Source: Ochromonadaceae sp. CCMP2298 (Eukaryota > Sar > Synurophyceae > Ochromonadales > Ochromonadaceae). From it: DNA of 23,878 nt. Shown piece after piece: positions 8,128 to 21,400 of the stretch; the stretch's first letter is position 1, and every line of letters begins with the position of its first letter. Where the stretch lies: NCBI GenBank assembly GCA_026770595.1, contig MU633789.1:1-23878 (forward strand), written 5' to 3'. Made by a program: the position numbers and the translations under genes. Below the pieces are notes generated by a model. That model was given only the letters and a program-made list of their open reading frames with translations. It had not been told where the DNA came from and did no database searches.

Positions 8128-8538
8128 CGTTGAATCTGACTGACCGCCGTGTAATGAAGTGAGATTATCTGTAGAAAAGAGAGGGCCTGTGGGTGGAAAG
8201 CCTCTCTTGGTGCTTCGGCTCTGCTCCCCTCCCCACGGCAGCCAGAGGTTTTGCGGCTATAATTTTCGCCTATTTTCGCCATCCCCTCCTGCCTATCTTT
8301 TGGCCCTGTTTTTTGAGTGGCTGCTAGGGAGCAGTACGTACTGGGGTAGTGGCGCCGGTATTTTATGTGGCGCCGATTTTCAGACGTGGTGTGGCTGCTT
8401 CCACCCAATCCGTCATTGAGGGGACGCGGACAATCTCTGATCTGTTTCAGCAGCTCCTGGCATTCGTCGGGCCCGAAGACCCTCAACACGCTCTCGCTCT
8501 CTCTGCGTTGCCAGCTCTGCCGACTCGGCCAAGGGAAC
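8128..8538. promoter_or_regulatory. Bidirectional promoter, RPL17 / NOC4
   Basis: This 411-bp divergent spacer contains ATTTTCGCC twice in tandem (8262-8270 and 8272-8280, period 10) beside a TATAA at 8258-8262. It also holds a perfect 12-bp palindrome CAGTACGTACTG (8332-8343) and GTGGCGCCG twice (8349-8357 and 8367-8375, period 18). The TTTTCGCC element resembles an E2F-like half-site, which is only a resemblance. Transcription start sites cannot be placed from sequence. Confidence 0.6.
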
Positions 8539-10314
8539 ATGTCGATGGAGGGCGTTCAGCAGGTGCGCGACTTGGAGCGGTCGGTGAAGAGCGACCCCAA
8601 AGCCGCGAATGATATTATCGCTCTGCGAAAGATAGTGGCAGACGACAGCAAGGCTGCGGATACTCGCATCGCTGCTGTCAACGCGTTGAGGAGGATCTTC
8701 ATCCACTACGTTGAGTCCAACTGGTCCCGCCGCGCTGTCCCGAAGAGTGCGGCTGCCGCGAAGAAGGCGAATGAGTTCAACAGCTGGTTTCAGGGACAGT
8801 TCGGCACCTACAAGAGCGTCCTCATACAGCTCGCTACCCACGACAACGACTCGTTTCAAGCGGTGTCGATAAGGTCGTACATTGAGATGATGAAGCTGGA
8901 CAGCGCGGTGGCGGACGGTCCAACAGCAAAGCCCGTGTTCAACATGGAGTCATGGAAAAACCTGCTCGTTGCGTTGCTCGTGTCGCAAAAGGAGCTGGAC
9001 GTGGATCTTCTGCTGATGCTCAGGGAGGAGATATTGTCTCTGCACGACTGCCTCTACTTCGCCTACATCGCAGTGACAGACCTGACGCTCGAGATCAAGG
9101 ACATGATTAGGCAGTCTTCAGATGCCATTCTCAGCAGTGGAAAAGCCAACGACACGGCCAGCTCCATCGTCTCAAATATCGACATTATTCGCAAAAACAT
9201 ATTCGACTTTCTGCGTGTGTCTGGTCTGCCGCAGAGCATCGACCTGGACAACTTTCTGGTCCCTCTGAGCAAAGGCGGAGCGGCAGAGGAGGACAGCGAG
9301 GCAGAGGAGGAATCAGACGACGAGGTGGACGCCGAGAAGGTGAAGCAGCAGCGGAAGGAAGCGCTGCTGGATAAGATGGACCCATTGCTCGCCGAGCTCG
9401 CGGGCCTGAAACGCGGCGCCCCTGCGTCCAAGGGCGCATCGAAGAAACGACGTGGCGAGGTCTCTCTGACAGACAAGCTGATGGACGTTGAATTCTACAG
9501 ACGCTCTTTCTCAAAGGCCTGGCTGGCCTGCCTGGGCCTTCCCTTCACCCCCGCGCAGCACAAGCTTATCTTGAAGCACCTCCCTGAGCACGTGGTGCCC
9601 TCTCTGCGCAACCCGATGCTGCTCGCTGACTACCTCACGCAGAGCTACCGCGTCGGCGGGGTGGTGGCGGTGCTCGCCCTGGAGAGCCTGTTCCACCTCA
9701 TCATGCACAACAACCTTGACTATCCTGACTTCTTCCGCTCCCTATACCGCCTCTGCACTGTGGAGGTGTTCAGCGCCAAGTACCGCTTAACATTCATGAA
9801 GCTGCTGAACGCCTCCCTCAAGTCTGTTAACATCCCCGCCTACGTGGTGGCCGCATTCGTTAAACGCCTAGCCCACCTCGCACTGCACACGCCCTCCCCC
9901 AATGCGCCCTTCTGCATCGCCCAGTGCACCTGGCTGCTCCGCCAGCACCCCCAGACGCAGACGCTCATCCACAGAAAGCGCGGGGGGGACTTCGACAACG
10001 CTGAAGAAGAGGACCTGGAGAAGGCCGGGGCCATGCAGTCCTCCCTGTGGGAGATGGAACTACTGCAGAGCCACCACTGGGCCAAGGCAGCCTCCCTAGC
10101 GGAGGGCCTCACACACAACGAGTCTACCATCATCGGTGCCGCTGCAGGCAAGTACTACGTGCACATGCCTGAGCACATGGCCCCCAGCTACGCGGACGTG
10201 CTGGAGGACAACCAGAAGGGCAAGAAGGCACGCAACTTTGCTATGTCCTATGTCAAGCCAGAGGCGCTGCTCCCCAATGGTGGACTGATTGCGAATCATT
10301 TCTCTACAGGATGA
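8539..10314 (+). CDS. NOC4: Nucleolar complex protein 4 (Noc4/UTP19-like)
   Basis: Noc4 works with Nop14 in the nucleolus to assemble and export pre-40S particles. This intronless gene encodes 591 residues. It has an N-terminal helical region, an acidic stretch around residues 250-268 (EEDSEAEEESDDEVDAEKV), then the CBF/Noc domain from about 310 to 560. Diagnostic features are the FYRRSFSKAWLACLGLP opening, the LIMHNNLDYPDFFRSLY block, and the terminal motif ending YADVLEDNQK. The ATG at 8539 is chosen because it sits in good context (GGGAACATG) and starts a plausible Noc4 N-terminus. An in-frame ATG at 8365 would add 58 residues of unconvincing sequence. The stop is TGA. The gene is divergent from RPL17 and convergent, with only 111 bp between, with the glycosyltransferase gene. 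Confidence 0.93.
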   Translation: MSMEGVQQVRDLERSVKSDPKAANDIIALRKIVADDSKAADTRIAAVNALRRIFIHYVESNWSRRAVPKSAAAAKKANEFNSWFQGQFGTYKSVLIQLATHDNDSFQAVSIRSYIEMMKLDSAVADGPTAKPVFNMESWKNLLVALLVSQKELDVDLLLMLREEILSLHDCLYFAYIAVTDLTLEIKDMIRQSSDAILSSGKANDTASSIVSNIDIIRKNIFDFLRVSGLPQSIDLDNFLVPLSKGGAAEEDSEAEEESDDEVDAEKVKQQRKEALLDKMDPLLAELAGLKRGAPASKGASKKRRGEVSLTDKLMDVEFYRRSFSKAWLACLGLPFTPAQHKLILKHLPEHVVPSLRNPMLLADYLTQSYRVGGVVAVLALESLFHLIMHNNLDYPDFFRSLYRLCTVEVFSAKYRLTFMKLLNASLKSVNIPAYVVAAFVKRLAHLALHTPSPNAPFCIAQCTWLLRQHPQTQTLIHRKRGGDFDNAEEEDLEKAGAMQSSLWEMELLQSHHWAKAASLAEGLTHNESTIIGAAAGKYYVHMPEHMAPSYADVLEDNQKGKKARNFAMSYVKPEALLPNGGLIANHFSTG

Positions 10315-12265: not shown

Positions 12266-12680
12266 TGCCACTGCCCGATGCTCCGGGCCACCCCCGCTTC
12301 CACGGATGCTCCCTCCCGATGCTCCTGAGCCCCGCTGGCTGGCACTGTGGATGATAAGGTACCCCCGCTTCCACGGATGCTCCCTGCCGATGCTCCTGAG
12401 CCCCGCTGGCTGGCAATGTGAATGATAAGGTACATAAGGAAAGGTCGCACATAGATATGAAGATAAAGAAATCCAAGACTGGGCGGCCAGGATAAAATAT
12501 TGTCGAAGGTTTCATTCTTGACGCCGATTAATGGTAAATTTGTATATCGCCTGTGCCAGCGGAGTGGTACAGTATGCAGCGTTGGGAGGATCACCGCCTC
12601 CATCGAACTTCTGGCTGTTCTTCTGCAGTGGAGGGTAGAGACACAGAAATCATTATCTATTCGCCATAACGCTCTAGAAG
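12266..12680. promoter_or_regulatory. Bidirectional promoter, glycosyltransferase / ZNG1
   Basis: This 415-bp divergent spacer contains a 71-bp tandem duplication on the glycosyltransferase side (annotated separately). A TTTGTATATCG stretch lies near 12538-12548, followed by the probable ZNG1 5'UTR. No gene is visible in it. Confidence 0.55.
12290..12431. repeat. 71-bp tandem duplication
   Basis: Two adjacent copies (12290-12360 and 12361-12431) start ACCCCCGCTTCCACGGATGC and differ at only three positions. The duplication begins 25 bp upstream of the glycosyltransferase ATG, so it lies in that gene's 5'UTR or proximal promoter. Within each unit the string GATGCTCC occurs twice, pointing to an older internal repeat. 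Confidence 0.93.
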
Positions 12681-14183
12681 ATGGCGGACCTGGTTGAGAA
12701 GAAGGTGGACGATGGGCAGGAGGAGGACGACGAGGAGGAGTACGCGGAGATCCCCGACTCGGAGAAGACCCCGGTCACCATTATTACTGGATTCCTCGGA
12801 GCAGGAAAGACCACCCTGGTGAACTACATCCTGAAGGAGCAGAACACTTGGAAGATCTGCGTTGTGGAGAACGAGTTCGGCGAGGTCTCGATTGACAACG
12901 ACCTCGTGAAGGAGAACCTCGCAGCGAAGGAGGATATCATCATGATGGACAATGGCTGCGTCTGCTGCAGCGTTAGAGGCGACCTGGTGCGGGCGTTCTC
13001 CATGCTGGTGAGCCGCAGGAAGGAGTTCGATGCCATCATCATCGAGACCACCGGCCTGGCGGATCCGTCTCCCATCGTGTTCACGTTCAACAGCAACAGT
13101 CTGATCCAGGACAACTATAGGATCGACAGCGTGGTGTGCCTGGTTGACGCGAAGCACATCAACATCCACCTGGACGACATAAAGCCTGAGGGCAATATCA
13201 ACGAGGCGGAGCACCAGATCGCATTCGCTGACCGCATCCTTCTGAACAAGCTGGACCTGGTCTCGAAAGAAGAGTTGGAGGACGTGGAGGACCGAATCAA
13301 GTCCATGAACTCCTTCGCCACCCTCATCCGCACCGAGCGCTCCCGGGCGCCGCTCGACCAGGTGCTGGGTCTAAATAGCTTCAGTTTAGAGAAGGTGGTG
13401 GAGGTGGATCCCACTATTATGGATGAGGAGGAGGAGGAGGAGGAGGTTGATGCGGGGCACGTGCACGACGAGCACTGCAACCACGAGAGCCACGACTCTG
13501 GCCACGTGCACGACGAGCACTGCAAACACGAGGAGGATCACAGCCACGGGCACGGACACGGGCACGACTCCGCACACAAGCACGATGACGGCCACGCACA
13601 CGGGCACGGTCACGAGTCTGCACACAAGCACGAGGATCACGGGCACGGCCATGATGCGGGGCATGTCCACGATGAGCACTGCTCCCACGACCACAAAGGT
13701 AACTTTCCACATTCGCTGCCTCTATCTGTCCGCACGCCTTACCCTCTTTACGAATTACCTCATTACGAATTCGCAGAGCACGACCACGGACACGACCACG
13801 CGGTGGAGAAGCCCCTGAAGAAGAAGAAGAAGACGCACAACCTGTCTCTCGTCTCCTCCGTGGGCTTCACCATCGTGGGCCTATTGGACGTGGCTCTCTT
13901 CAACACCTTCATGACCACCCTGCTGCAAGCCAAGGCCGCCGACCTATACCGCACCAAGGGAGTGCTGGCCTTCGCGGGCCAGGGGGATGTGAAGTTCGTG
14001 TTCCAGGGTGTGCACGAGCAGATCAACTTCGGGCCTTCGGAGCACCCCTGGGGAGAGGGCGTGCCCCGCGATACGAAGATGGTGTTCATCGGCAAGAACC
14101 TGGACTACGAGTACCTCAAGGAGTCCCTCCTGCAGTGCTGCGAGGACCCCGCCACTGCGGTGCTCACCATGCACAAGCGCTGA
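12681..14183 (+). CDS. ZNG1/CobW-family zinc GTPase with His-rich metal-binding region
   Basis: COG0523 GTPases bind Zn and deliver it to client metalloenzymes; ZNG1 serves methionine aminopeptidase 1. Exons are 12681-13698 and 13777-14183 around a 78-bp GT-AG intron (phase 1), giving 474 residues. Walker A is GFLGAGKT (37-44). The metal motif CVCC is at 93-96, ETTGLADP at 122-129 and the guanine motif NKLD at 189-192. An acidic Glu run is followed by a region of about 95 residues rich in His, Asp and Gly, with three HVHDEHC units. The C-terminal CobW_C domain starts near LVSSVGF and ends just before the stop. The intron lies inside the His-rich segment, is a multiple of three and has no stop, so retention would add 26 residues. 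The client-docking motif CPELVP is not seen at the N-terminus. Confidence 0.93.
   Translation: MADLVEKKVDDGQEEDDEEEYAEIPDSEKTPVTIITGFLGAGKTTLVNYILKEQNTWKICVVENEFGEVSIDNDLVKENLAAKEDIIMMDNGCVCCSVRGDLVRAFSMLVSRRKEFDAIIIETTGLADPSPIVFTFNSNSLIQDNYRIDSVVCLVDAKHINIHLDDIKPEGNINEAEHQIAFADRILLNKLDLVSKEELEDVEDRIKSMNSFATLIRTERSRAPLDQVLGLNSFSLEKVVEVDPTIMDEEEEEEEVDAGHVHDEHCNHESHDSGHVHDEHCKHEEDHSHGHGHGHDSAHKHDDGHAHGHGHESAHKHEDHGHGHDAGHVHDEHCSHDHKGNFPHSLPLSVRTPYPLYELPHYEFAEHDHGHDHAVEKPLKKKKKTHNLSLVSSVGFTIVGLLDVALFNTFMTTLLQAKAADLYRTKGVLAFAGQGDVKFVFQGVHEQINFGPSEHPWGEGVPRDTKMVFIGKNLDYEYLKESLLQCCEDPATAVLTMHKR
13451..13800 (+). repeat. Coding His-rich repeats of ZNG1
   Basis: Repeated GGGCACGG / GAGCACTGC-type sequence encodes three HVHDEHC units and two SAHKH(D/E) units. 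The 78-bp intron interrupts it at 13699-13776. The near-identical units suggest recent internal duplication. Confidence 0.8.
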
Positions 14184-14534: not shown

Positions 14535-16926
14535 TTAAATGCTCTCAATGTTCGCTCCCACGCCGACTGGGCTCTCGAGTTGCCTCGCATGCGTGTCGAA
14601 CGATGTAATCTGCTGCTGGAGCAGCAGCACCTTGTCCTCCCTGCCCTGCCTTACCGCCTCCACAAGCCGCTTCTTCAAGCGCGCCAGGATAGTCGCATCG
14701 TCCCGGGTTGTTGGTAGAGGGTTGAGGGTCTCCTTTATCTTCGGGAAAGAGGCCTTAAGCTCCTCGGGAGAGAAGGAGTGCTTCCCCTCCAGCAGGTCGC
14801 TGCGCACCTCGATAAGCGCGTCGCACCGCAATGCCAGCGCGATCGCGAAAAAGGCGCTTTTTGTGTTCACCTCTCGCGCGAATCCGGAGCGAGTCAGTAC
14901 TGTGCTGTTGCCCTCATGGGCGTCTGTATTCGTGCCGGGTTCCGTCTTCCCGCTCTTTATGTCCAGCACGGGCAGCAGGTTGGCATCTGGGCGCGCACGG
15001 CCCCACCTGCCCCCCACAGCCTCGACCTCCACGGCCACTGGAGATAGCAGCTCCTTGTTGCCGCTGCTTGCAGTGGTGTTGGTATCGTTTTCTGAGCGCT
15101 TCTGCGAGCCCGCCAGCAGCGCCTGGAAGGTCGTCTTCACCTTAGCCTTGTCCTCGCCCGAGCTCCCGTCCACATCCTCAATAAGTACCAATTTCAACTC
15201 GTACTTCTGCTTCGCATCGCCCTTGAATTGCGACATGAGCGCGTCCTTGGCCAGGTATGTCTCCACGTCAATGCCTTGCAGCAGCTGCAGCAAAGTCACA
15301 GCCTCAGATGTCTCCACCTCCTCTCGGTCCAGTCCCTCGCTCATGGGGTCCTCAGGCATCACCAACACCTTCACACAACGGTCAGATACGGTGCCCTGTA
15401 GGAAGACGCAAAAGCCATCGTCGGACACGCTCATCGCGCGCACCTGCACCTCCTCGTAGCTCACCACCACCTCCTCCTCTTTCTCCTCTTTCTCCACCAC
15501 GTCCCGCATGTCAGCGTCGAGCACATTCTCGCCCTCGAAGTGGGTGGTGTCTACGAGGCCTGACTCGAAGAAAATGCTCTCCTCGTCTGCTGAATCGAAC
15601 AGATCATCTGGGCGATAACCTGACGCAGAAGTCAGCAGGAGGGAGGAGGAGTCCGTCCAGGCACGGGCAGCCACGTCCCTGAGAGAGAGGTTGTAGGAAA
15701 GAAAAAGAGAGAAAGAGTAGAATAGTGTGGATGTTAGAGGGTGCGGGTGATGTATTATGTCAGAGGGTGCGTAAAAGGCGGGGGGGTGGGTAGTACCTGA
15801 AGGCCCAGATGACGGTGTCGAGGTCTTCGTCCCGGATGTCCCGGTGCGTGCACAGACGCAGGCTGCGCGGCCCGAACGGCAGCACCAGCACACCCCTTTC
15901 TTTGAGCTTCCCCGCGAAGGAGGAGGGGTCTTCGCTCTCATACTCTAGGTGGATTATGACGATGTTCGTGTCCACCGTTTCGGGGTCCACGCGGATGCCG
16001 GGGATGCTGGAGAGGGCCATAGCGATCACCGCGGCGCGCTTGTGGTCCGTCTCCAGCATACCGGATTCGAAGTCATCCAAAGCCCGCATACCCGCAGCAG
16101 CCAGCACCCCCACCTGGCGCATGCCTCCGCCTAGCGCTTTGCGTATGCGGCGGGCCTTGTCGATCAGGTGGCTGGGGCCCACAAGCAGGGAGCCTGAGGG
16201 TGCGCCGAGGCCTTTAGAGAGACAGGCCGAGAGAGAGTCTACAGGTGCAGCCAGCTTGGCCAAAGTGGTGCCAGACGCGGTGGCGGCGTTCCAGATGCGA
16301 GCGCCGTCCATGTGAACGGCTAGGTCTTTTCTGTCAGCCAGCCAGCGCACGGCCTCCGCGTATCCCCCAGGCAGCACTCGCCCCCCGCAGTAGTTGTGCG
16401 TGTTCTCGATAGCGATCATCTGCGTCTCCGGGAAGTGCACGTTGTCTGCGCGGATGGCTGCCTCGATCGCCCCGATGTCCATGGTCCCGTCGGCGCGGTT
16501 CGTCACCACGCGCGGAGAGACGCCTGCGATCTGCGCCATGTTGGACTGCTCGAACAGATACATGTGTGACGAGTCGCCCAGGATCACCTCCGACCCCCTA
16601 GCATCACACCAGGCCATCGTGGCTGCAAGATTGGACATCGTACCGGTGGGAAAGAAGAGCGATCTTTCCTTGCCGAACATCAAAGCCACGCGCTCCTCGA
16701 GCTTGTTCACCGTGGGGTCCTCACCGAACACGTCGTCTCCCACCTCCGCCTCCGCCATGGCTTTGCGCATTGCCGGTGTGGGCCTTGTGATCGTATCGCT
16801 GCGAAGATCCACGGTCATAATGCGCGGCGGCCTCTTCGGCAGAAGCAGCGAGGCAACCAAGCCAAATACATCGGGCAACAGAAGCAACTCCAAGAACAAA
16901 GCGCCGAAGACGAGACTTGGCTTCAT
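14535..16926 (-). CDS. Threonine aldolase fused to bifunctional-nuclease (DUF151)-UVR module
   Basis: Exons are 16926-15797 and 15678-14535 around a 118-bp GT-AG intron (phase 2), giving 757 residues. Residues 38-377 are a PLP-dependent L-threonine aldolase, which cleaves threonine to glycine and acetaldehyde. Visible are VDLRSDTITRPT, HMDGARIWNAA (Asp207) and the PLP-lysine motif SKGLGAP (Lys238). After an acidic linker, residues about 452-673 match the BFN/DUF151 fold (DDGFCVFLQG, SEAVTLLQLLQGID, IALALRCDALIEV) with a large insertion near 568-640. The usual RPSDA block before IALALR is degenerate (TKSAFF), so nuclease activity is doubtful. Residues 709-737 resemble a UVR helix pair, as in plant BBD proteins. 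The N-terminus (1-30) is hydrophobic: a signal peptide, anchor or plastid/ER leader. The splice joins the domains in frame, and the nuclease part has no plausible start of its own upstream of the fold. Confidence 0.82.
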
Positions 16927-17329: not shown

Positions 17330-18219
17330 ATGAACCTTGTCGAGGAGGACGAACCCTTCGTGCAGATTCTGCACGACATGGGCATCGAAAGCTTCAATCC
17401 GCTCGTGCCCACTGCGCTAAATGAGTATGCTACACGTAAGCTCGGCATAGTTCTTTTTAGGCATGAAGCACTTTGTCTGAGCGGTTTCGTCGTCCTCTCG
17501 TTCTTCCCAAACAGGGTTCGCCACGGAGCTCCTGGCTGATGCGAGAGACTACTCCAAGCATGCAGGCAGAGCAGTAAGTCAATCAACCCCCTTTCTGTCA
17601 CTATCTTCTCACGCTGCTCTCTATGTACCCACTGGGCCTGCAGGAGATCGAGCCGGAGGATGTGAAGCTCGCGGTGAAGCTCAGCGACGCACATGCTGTT
17701 GGCTTCGACGCCCCCGAGAGCGTGCAGCACGCAGTGCAGGCGGAGATGGAGCGGAATGACCTGACGATGCTAGCCGACCCATCTTCGGTGCTGCACCGCT
17801 ACCCACAGGACATGTTCATGCAACGCGCATATACGTTCGTCACGGGCAGCGAGGCCTATCCGCAGGACGTGGAGGGAGGCGCGACGGGTGGTGTGGAGAC
17901 GCTGACGGGCGTCCAAGCCGCCAGCGGGACTGTTTCTGGACCCACTGGTCAATACCAGTCCGGAAGCACAACCTCCTTGAAGTTTCAGACCACTGCCCGG
18001 ACAGGTAAGATTTTGCCATTATTCCTCCTTCAAACGTACAATGGATGCTGTCTCCTTATAGTGAATGTAACGGACAGTAGCAGCGGCAGTAAGCGTCGGA
18101 TTTACTACCTTATCAGATCGCCGCATTCTTTTTCTCATCTTCATCCCTATGTGGCGCCCCTCTTTCCAGGACCCAAGAAGCTGGACAGCGCCCCGGGATT
18201 TGATGATTCGGATTTGTAA
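17330..18219 (+). CDS. TAF9: Transcription initiation factor TFIID subunit 9
   Basis: TAF9 is a histone-fold subunit of TFIID and SAGA that pairs with TAF6. Exons are 17330-17435, 17515-17573, 17644-18004 and 18170-18219, with GT-AG introns of 79, 70 and 165 bp (phases 1, 0, 1), giving 191 residues. The fold reads VQILHDMGIESFNP, then YATRFATELLADARDYSKHA across the first splice, then IEPEDVKLAVKL across the second. This matches TAF9 helices alpha1 to alpha3 in order. The protein is shorter than metazoan TAF9 and has a Gly/Ser/Thr-rich tail ending in an acidic DDSDL. The ATG at 17330 places the fold near the N-terminus, as in other TAF9s. Intron 3 is a multiple of three and lacks a stop, so its retention would insert 55 residues. 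TGTAAATA lies 37 nt after the stop. Confidence 0.93.
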
Positions 18220-18477
18220 TGCCGGCGTCACAAGTATGAATAATATGTAATTCACTGTAAATATATTCGATGGTTCAGATGTACTGACAAGTTTTGAAAA
18301 TAGGAGAGCATAAGCAACCTCAATCTAGTTTCTTCATGTTGTACAGTACACACAAGCTATTCGTAAAAGTTTCTTCTAGGTTCTTGTTCTATGCTCTAAC
18401 TATGTATCGGTCCCATTTGTATATATGTATTGGTCCAGGGTGCACGTACCCCTCCTCCAGATCTGTACGGAAGTAAA
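18220..18477. other. Convergent 3' region, TAF9 / DENN-WD40 gene
   Basis: This 258-bp spacer contains TGTAATTC and TGTAAATA (18256-18263) for TAF9, and TGTACTGTAC on the minus strand about 130 nt after the DENN-WD40 stop. A TTTGTATATATG stretch occurs near 18416. No gene and no AATAAA were seen. Confidence 0.5.
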
Positions 18478-21400
18478 TCAACACGAGAGTGAGTGTTGGT
18501 CGTACACGAAGCAGCGCAGGGTGCCATTCCATCCGTTGGTGACGATGCAGGTGCGTGTGCCTGGGTTGTCCAGATCGGTGAACTCCACAGGACCCTGGTG
18601 ATAGGTAGGTGGTAGGTGGTAAGTAGTAAGTGGTAAGTGGTAGGTGGTATGTTATGTGGGCACGCGGGGAGTGGGGAGTGGGGAGTGGCACAAAAGCGAA
18701 ATAAAGCAGCTCTCACATGGGGTGTGTGTATAACGTTGTTGGCCCGCCGGAAGGAGGTCATTTTCATCTGCGCCACGCCTTCGTCGTCGAAGGCGCGCAG
18801 TAGGTATGTGTTCTGGCCGTTGATAGAGTCCCTAAAGTGTAAGATGTAAGGTGGAATAGGTAATATATAATGTAAGATGTAAGGGGGGGGTGTAGAAAAG
18901 AAAAGACAACCACCGAACAGTAGTATTACTTACCAGGTACGTACTGTGCCGTCGTGCGAGGCTGTGTGGAACTCGTCCACGCCGTTCCAGGCGATGGCGG
19001 TGATGCGGGAGCGGTGGCCCTGCGAGACGCTTGAGGGTGTGTTCACGTCGTAGCGGCGGTCCCAGATGCGCACGACGCCATCCGCACTGGTCGATATCAC
19101 CAGCGAGTCGTCCCCGCCCCCCACGGCGATAGCAGTCACCGCCGAGGCGGCGCACTTTTTGTGCCCATCTGAGCCCATAGAGCGGCCCTCCAATACGCGC
19201 CCGTCGAGGGTCTGTGTGGAGCGGTTGCGGGTGCGTATGTCCCACAGCTTTATGGAGCGGTCGGTCGAGCTGGAGATAAACTCGTTCGCGCGCAGGCCTA
19301 GCAGCTGCGTGACTCTACCCGAGTGCGCGACCACCTGGAAGACCGGCTGTGCGGTAGTGAGGTCCAGCAGAGAGACCAGGCCCGTGCTGGTGCCCACCCC
19401 CAGGTACTCGTCGTTGCTACGCGGCTTCAAAGTGCGGGTGGGGGGGCGCTTGCCACTGAGCGGGGATTCCGCTGTGCGCTCAGCGCCTATGAAAGCTAGA
19501 CAACAGATGCTGAGGTCAGGGGGTGGGGCGTCGAGGTAGATCTTCTGAGAGCTCCCGTTGTGCGCGAAGGTGGGATTAATGGCGTGCGTCAACGAGATTG
19601 TGTGGGAGGAATTGTCAGACCCGCGGGTGAGAGATACCAACCCTGCGCTGTCCCCCGCAGCCAGCAGCCACCCCTCGCCCTCTCGCCGCACAGCCATCGC
19701 ACCGATCTCCGCAGAGTGTCCCTTGATGGTGGCCAGGGATTGGTTGTTTCCCATACGCCCCCACAGTTTGCTGATGGTGGAGGCGGGCTGGGGCGTGCTG
19801 GTGGCGAAACCGTCCTGGGGCAGCGTCCAGGCCCGCAGCACGCCGTTGGAGCAGCCGCTGAAAAAGAGCTGAGCGGGAGAGTTAGCGCCGGGGTCTTTGT
19901 CGCCAGCGCTTGTGGGGCTATTGGTAGCGCTAGAGGTAGTGGTAGTGGCGACGTCTTGCAAACAAACGAGGCTTGTTACCCCCCTGTATGCGTCGCCGCT
20001 ACCTGAGCTGTGCCGATGCGTCGCCGCTACCACGCCCGTTGCGAGGTCAGTGATGGAGATGCAGCCTGCGTGCGTGCCGCTCACTAGCCAGTTCCCCGAC
20101 ACTTCTGTGGCAGTCACCTGCCCCTCGTCCAGGCCCTGCGTAAGAGGGAGATCGAGGAAGAGCGAGGGATGAAGAACGTCAAGGGAGAGGTAGGAGGACG
20201 GGAAGGTGAGAGGGAAGTAGGGAGGTTGAGGAAGGGCAGGAGGGTGATAATGATTCGAGTGGTTAGTAGAAAGTATTAAAACCAATGTGTCAGGGAAGGA
20301 GAGCGAGAGCTGTATAGAGAGCGAAACACAGGGGCAGCTGCGGGTGGACTGTAAGCAACACACGCAAAACGCAATACACGATACACAACACGCTCCCTAT
20401 TCAAGCCACTTACGATGAGAGGCAGGGGCGAAAATTTTCTAGGCAGGTCCATGCTCACGGTCTTGGGACGATGGGTGTGGCGTGGCGTGGGGGCCAATGG
20501 ACCCCCATCTGTATCCCCTGACATAGTGCGCAAGTCGTCCTCGGTGACGCTGTGGCGGTAGGACTCATCGATACTGGGTATGCGGCGCAAGTCAAAGGAA
20601 TCCATCTCGTCCAGACTGGGTATGGGCTTGTCTAAGCCCAGAAATACACACTGCAGCAACCCCTCGGAGTGGTTGGGTCGGCTCACTCGAGAGGCTCTGG
20701 AGACTCGGTCGCTGTCCGAAGAGTGCTCACTCTCCTCGTCGATCTGCTCCAGCTTCTCGCCGTAGAAGGAGTCCCGCATGCTGCCCTTGCGCGACAACAA
20801 GTGGGGCAGGTCGGGTGAGCGTGCATTGGAGGCGTCTGAGCTGGGGGAGGAGTCTGCGCTGGACCCCCCAGTCCTATTTAATCGCACCTTTGCGCCCTCC
20901 TCGTCGTTGCGTTTGGAGTGCCTTTTGCCCTTCTCTTCATTCTTGGAGCTGAAGAGCTTTGAGCTGTCGTGTCCCTGCATGGAGAGCATATCCCCCAGAC
21001 TCAGAGAGGTGCGGCCCTTGTGCTTGCGGCCCCTGGGCGTGCTCTCCCTCTTCACCCGCTCCTGCTCTGCCGCCAGCTCGTCCACGTTGATGGTCCAGAT
21101 GCGGTTGACGAACCTTTGCAACTTTGTGTACTCGTTGATCGACAGTGCGTAGTCCGAGGCCACCCCCTGGATGAACAGCAGTGCGCGCGCGTTGTTTACC
21201 TCCAATTCGAGCATTATGAAGAGCAGCGCGTACACCTCTGAGAGCACGCTGTGCAGCAGAACGTGTGCTCGGGCGATCTTGCCGAGCTTCGCGTCAGGCG
21301 GGGGCACGCGCGAGCACATGAGTGCCCTCCAGAGGTCTGAGTTGTGGTAGATGGGATGCTGGCAGGTGCGCTGGGAAAGGAACTCCATGATATCGTCGGG

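Follow-up and report, generated by a model that had tools for sequence, protein, structure and literature searches.

A threonine aldolase fused to a divergent DUF151-like and UVR-like tail in the chrysophyte Ochromonadaceae sp. CCMP2298

The stretch of DNA analysed here (the window; 23,878 nt, positions 1 to 23,878 of contig MU633789.1, assembly GCA_026770595.1) belongs to Ochromonadaceae sp. CCMP2298, a chrysophyte that came from the lowest part of an Arctic sea-ice core and has a published 61.1-Mb draft assembly (PMC9756366); NCBI places it in Ochromonadales. On its reverse strand lies a gene whose two exons encode one spliced protein composed of a leader, a threonine aldolase, an acidic linker and a tail in which a divergent DUF151 fold is followed by a UVR-like hairpin. 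The gene model was reproduced, the fold of the tail is predicted, the residues proposed for a nuclease in that fold are replaced and the architecture is kept in relatives. The protein seems to be a regulated enzyme and not a nuclease, and the reading that we prefer, with a little less than even confidence, is that the tail regulates or docks the aldolase.

One spliced gene, with the same architecture in relatives

Splicing and translating the window reproduced the coordinates, frame, phase and GT-AG intron of the original prediction and bore out the fusion that it had proposed: the joined exons form one open reading frame (ORF) of 757 aa plus stop, identical letter for letter to the database protein P0026. 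This record is named 'pyridoxal phosphate-dependent transferase [Ochromonadaceae sp. CCMP2298]' and lists the sources ncbi, nr and mmetsp; the last label, taken by itself, is a hint that the spliced product is encoded in a transcript. Three neighbouring splice choices, each one base off, all shift the frame. In the full-length AlphaFold2 model (predicted template modelling score, pTM, 0.55), which comprises two bodies separated by a low-confidence linker, a single helix (residues 366–395) crosses the exon junction at residue 377, and the blocks flanking it have predicted local distance difference test (pLDDT) values of 96 and 89. The RDVAARAW that follows the intron extends the last aldolase helix in the model and is like the sequence of relatives at that place.

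The aldolase is recognized by PF01212 with 328.6 bits (cut-off 27) over model columns 1–286 of 288, and its CLSKGLGAP segment, which includes Lys238, the residue that we take to be the lysine binding pyridoxal phosphate (PLP), aligns with PDB aldolases. Among NCBIfam models the 'GntG family PLP-dependent aldolase' subfamily ranks first (439 bits against a cut-off of 230), a name that carries no toxin implication for this protein; the model for low-specificity threonine aldolase reaches 309.2, slightly below its cut-off of 312. The nearest solved structures are L-allo-threonine aldolases, and the best prokaryotic match in a genome scan (among the best 80 of 346) is a deltaproteobacterial locus (L002) with 54% identity. 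The enzyme would be a PLP-dependent aldolase, probably located in an organelle, that cleaves threonine or allo-threonine to acetaldehyde and glycine. The hydrophobic leader noted earlier is present in the window protein, and an 11-residue stretch with a mean hydropathy of at least 1.8 was found in 23 of 27 rows picked for having a leader of 25–75 residues; in an earlier list, 7 of 27 distinct proteins had fewer than 25 residues ahead of the core, and among tail-less rows 25 or more residues precede it in 3 of 83. Several leaders continue with A-L-x-x-P and a basic stretch, which presumably could mark a plastid-type bipartite leader, Leu in place of Phe making this indecisive. A plastid location of the window protein is a guess from its leader.

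Two protein-database searches, one with exon 2 and one with the tail of the full-length protein (about 8000 candidates scored in each), gave 23 and 47 matches respectively, the latter including P0026. PF01212 and at least the N-terminal half of the tail occur in one predicted protein in 35 of the 47, so that the domain order which the original prediction had proposed to look for does recur in relatives; a motif search reached the hairpin in 32 of these 35, the other three (P0021, P0023 and P0056) ending earlier. The remaining 12 have no PF01212, and many of them begin within the linker; those that do may be exon pieces. In P0051 and P0053, ORFs with a complete aldolase and the tail fill their contigs but for 93 and 117 nt; in P0011, an ORF with the aldolase's end and the tail does so but for 26 nt. 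The joining of the two parts therefore needs no intron. The aldolase likewise continues into the tail in the EukProt protein P0098, and we infer that P0052, labelled 'archaeon', is a misassigned eukaryotic contig.

A first tree, built from 16 of 18 bacterial loci and all fused proteins but three (32 of 35; the search pattern missed P0011, P0016 and P0052), placed its fused rows on one side with a support of 100/100. In a wider tree of 68 rows, unfused aldolases, a term that means here a predicted protein with no visible tail and nothing more, stand, with mixed support, amid the fused ones close to P0054 and P0055; ten rows classed as pieces may be first exons of fused genes. As a result of this interspersion neither a single origin of the fusion nor repeated origins are claimed. 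For the fused P0055 and the unfused P0074 the longest JGI contig has the same stated length, 29621 nt; judging by this equality alone, the two may lie side by side in one genome.

Predicted structure of the tail

The DUF151-like fold of the tail, recognized earlier from the letters, is backed both by structure comparison of the AlphaFold2 model and by profile comparison, in which it beats 100 shuffles (hhalign's own probability is 41%). The Pfam check proposed along with it gave a different answer, neither PF02577 nor PF02151 being called in the tail: PF02577 (cut-off 27 bits) has no match in it, and among 44 family members scanned any match to this profile was seen in five, with a best E of 0.0075; the bit scores seen lie between 12.2 and 17.6.

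The helix pair at the C-terminus stands as a prediction and as a profile similarity, not as a Pfam UVR domain, since PF02151 matched none of the 44 members even at E 10. Two helices are modelled (residues 704–721 and 724–745), and the hairpin appears to align in register with a UVR profile made from 16 segments of 19 loci (the other loci were missed by the search pattern) with a score of 21.1 and an E of 4.4e-5, 200 column shuffles reaching at most 14.7. Reversing the profile lowered the score to 10.7; eight circular shifts gave between 12.7 and 20.6, the top value coming from a shift of four, which preserves most of the register. The hairpin is called UVR-like, not UVR.

Possible roles of the tail

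It is proposed that the tail does not cut nucleic acid and would instead regulate or dock the aldolase, most likely by binding a Clp-type unfoldase or another partner that would control the activity or half-life of the enzyme. Clp is named because plant proteins of the DUF151-UVR type have been proposed to bind it: UVR2, UVR3 and UVR4 of Arabidopsis were reported to be enriched with a CLPC1 trap (PMC8889267). Several points weigh against this proposal. The binding of Clp by the tail is a suggestion by analogy with these three proteins; Clp works in the plastid, where the window protein is placed by its leader as a mere guess; the UVR profile shifted by four scores close to the true register, and PF02151 is silent throughout; the full-length model, at its pTM, settles no contacts between the domains; and the unfused aldolases among the fused ones in the wider tree indicate that the enzyme can dispense with the tail in some lineages.

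The alternative that survives best, though we consider it rather unlikely, is that the DUF151 fold binds a small ligand, for instance an amino acid or a nucleotide, and controls the aldolase directly, with no protein partner. A ligand sensor does form part of the same protein in some relatives, in one clade of which a cyclic-nucleotide-binding domain, missed in the original prediction, appears to have been added to the same tail. PF00027 was found in 19 of the 47 tail matches, 18 of them also with an aldolase; in P0033 it lies at residues 456–538, between aldolase and tail, with 71.6 bits, and resembles structures of protein kinase G (PKG) and of the regulatory subunit of protein kinase A (PKA), with a best E of 4.9e-39. 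The stretch FGEIALMYDAPRA, which we take to be the phosphate-binding cassette, is read in 11 of the 19, and the others vary (for example FGQTSLIYDTPRS in P0029 and FGEIALLYDTRRS in P0018). In the first tree the 18 rows with both domains form, together with P0051, which has no PF00027, one clade of 19 rows (100/100); as read from that tree, the distribution needs two changes, for example one gain and one loss, and of the two forms the plain aldolase-DUF151 one probably came first. The window protein itself has no Pfam match to PF00027, and a hidden domain of this kind in its linker was rejected on that ground and because the linker is a low-confidence coil in the model. Additionally, the block GLD....E(T/S)SEAVTLLQLLQGID of the tail is nearly or fully invariant across 41 aligned sequences, as a ligand-binding surface would be, but it might just as well serve in dimerization or in contact with a partner.

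The original prediction also allowed for a passenger fusion, that is, a tail acquired by chance with no part in the work of the aldolase, and the unfused aldolases among the nearest relatives speak for it. Nevertheless, it is unlikely, as conservation of the DUF151 core roughly equals that of the aldolase: across 12 selected full-length proteins, pairwise identity averages 0.60 in the aldolase and 0.66 and 0.51 in the N- and C-terminal parts of the core, compared to 0.42 in the hairpin, 0.22 in the insertion within the fold and 0.19 in the linker. The retention of the domain order in most tail matches stands against it as well. Conservation, as measured in this alignment, shows that the tail has some role, not necessarily one that concerns the aldolase.

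A bifunctional enzyme, whose tail would be an active DNase or RNase coupled to threonine breakdown, appears quite improbable. Plant DUF151 proteins have been reported to be bifunctional nucleases, and Asp115, His58 and Thr57 of TM0160 were proposed as a putative catalytic triad in work on Arabidopsis BBD1 and BBD2, the Asp being fully conserved in the Pfam seed (PMC7249048). When 45 tails are aligned together with seven references (six bacterial sequences and TM0160), the references have Asp and His in 7/7 and Thr in six, with one Ser, whereas the tails have Glu (26), Phe (8), Tyr (6), Met (2), Asp (1), Ile (1) or Val (1) at the Asp position, Arg (26), Lys (14) or His (5) at the His position and Ala (35), Pro (8) or Ser (2), never Thr, at the Thr position. 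The window protein has Ala, Lys and Phe at the Thr57, His58 and Asp115 sites. The replacement of all three makes a nuclease of the proposed kind unlikely, and the 'nuclease part' and nucleic-acid role put forward earlier were not borne out; in favour of such an activity remain the DUF151 fold itself and the frequent Glu, a mild change from Asp. The triad is itself only putative. Finally, two separate genes or transcripts mistaken for one, to which the in-frame ATGs within exon 2 (the first at residue 434, before the DUF151 fold) and the tail matches lacking an aldolase might point, can scarcely be maintained and were rejected, given the relatives that carry both parts within one ORF almost as long as its contig (P0051 and P0053), the continuation of the last aldolase helix after the intron and the transcript source suggested for P0026.

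With the regulating or docking tail as the preferred reading, a broader and more doubtful proposal can be made, in which golden algae and their relatives would possess an organelle-targeted threonine aldolase directly controlled by a tail of disarmed nuclease fold and UVR-like hairpin, one clade being placed under direct control by cyclic AMP or cyclic GMP through a PKA/PKG-type sensor. The role of DUF151-UVR proteins is unsettled between that of a nuclease, as reported in PMC7249048, and that of a Clp-interacting protein, as reported in PMC8889267. Fusion to a metabolic enzyme, with the proposed nuclease residues lost and the rest conserved about as well as the enzyme, argues that the fold is able to serve in a non-catalytic way. 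The fusion also names an enzyme on which DUF151-UVR function can be tested, and the cyclic-nucleotide-binding domain of some relatives makes control by cAMP or cGMP directly testable.

Features of the window and comparison with known systems

Features of the fused gene (positions in the window)
Feature	Position	Strand	Observation
Exon 1: leader and complete aldolase, residues 1–377 (last codon split)	15797..16926	-	1130 nt, giving phase 2
Hydrophobic leader, residues 1–36	16819..16926	-	Hydropathy
Aldolase core PF01212, residues 40–326	15949..16809	-	E 4.3e-98
Lys238 in SKGLGAP	16213..16215	-	Aligned with SKGL of PDB aldolases
Intron, GT-AG, 118 nt, phase 2	15679..15796	-	Runs GTACTACCCA...TCTCTCTCAG; spliced product is P0026
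Exon 2: linker and tail	14535..15678	-	Stop codon 14535–14537; 23 homologues
Acidic, mostly disordered linker, up to residue 449	15462..15678	-	Residues 402–444 with pLDDT <50
DUF151-like fold, N-terminal half, residues 450–573	15090..15461	-	AKDAL at the TM0160 Thr57-His58 site
Disordered insertion within the fold, residues 574–642	14883..15089	-	Residues 575–639 with pLDDT <50
DUF151-like fold, C-terminal half, residues 644–690	14739..14879	-	KSAFFA at the RPSDA (Asp115) site
UVR-like helical hairpin, residues 703–744	14577..14702	-	Model and profile

In the 11.2 Mb of the genome that were searched, nothing but the two exons matches the window protein, further PF01212 matches occur on contig C388 only and none was found for PF02577 or PF02151; from 11.2 of the published 61.1 Mb (PMC9756366), this says little about copy number. 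Elsewhere in the window lies a CobW-type GTPase gene (12678–14180, plus strand; PF02492 183 bits, CobW_C 71.5 bits), whose product has, by eye, a long His-Asp-rich stretch and looks like a metal chaperone. Two overlapping ORFs of the GlcNAc glycosyltransferase family PF11397 (10429–12511, minus strand) are probably exons of one gene; a CBF/Mak21-family ORF lies at 8350–10311 (plus strand) and a WD40-repeat ORF at 18933–20396 (minus strand). A spliced gene at 17330–18220 (plus strand) appeared TAF9-like by eye, and the two of its ORFs that were tested had no Pfam match.

In the literature searched, from which subscription journals and preprints were absent, threonine aldolase was never paired with DUF151, a UVR domain, PF02577, a cyclic nucleotide-binding domain or a chrysophyte. 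It occurs together with a bifunctional nuclease only in work on bud dormancy, each being mentioned once in the available text, and it is absent from the listed matches on fusions in stramenopiles.

Compared to known systems, residues 38–379 of the window protein match the full length of the aldolases of PDB 3wgb, 1jg8 and 4lnj and share their SKGLGAP lysine segment; the solved bacterial and archaeal-type enzymes stop at 333–382 aa, whereas the window protein extends 380 residues further. The domain of the P0033 type matches that of PKG and the PKA regulatory subunit, yet in the relatives it is attached to a lyase acting on amino acids instead of to a kinase or channel. With respect to DUF151 (PF02577; TM0160, PDB 1vjl and 1sj5), tails of the window type fall below the Pfam cut-off in the members scanned and differ from TM0160 in the replaced putative catalytic residues, in a long disordered insertion and in being joined to an enzyme. 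Plant BBD and UVR2–4 proteins have in common with the window tail the order of a DUF151-like fold followed by a UVR-like hairpin; unlike them, the window protein has a hairpin that is no Pfam UVR, and the plant proteins, as described in the available text of PMC7249048 and PMC8889267, are not fused to a metabolic enzyme.
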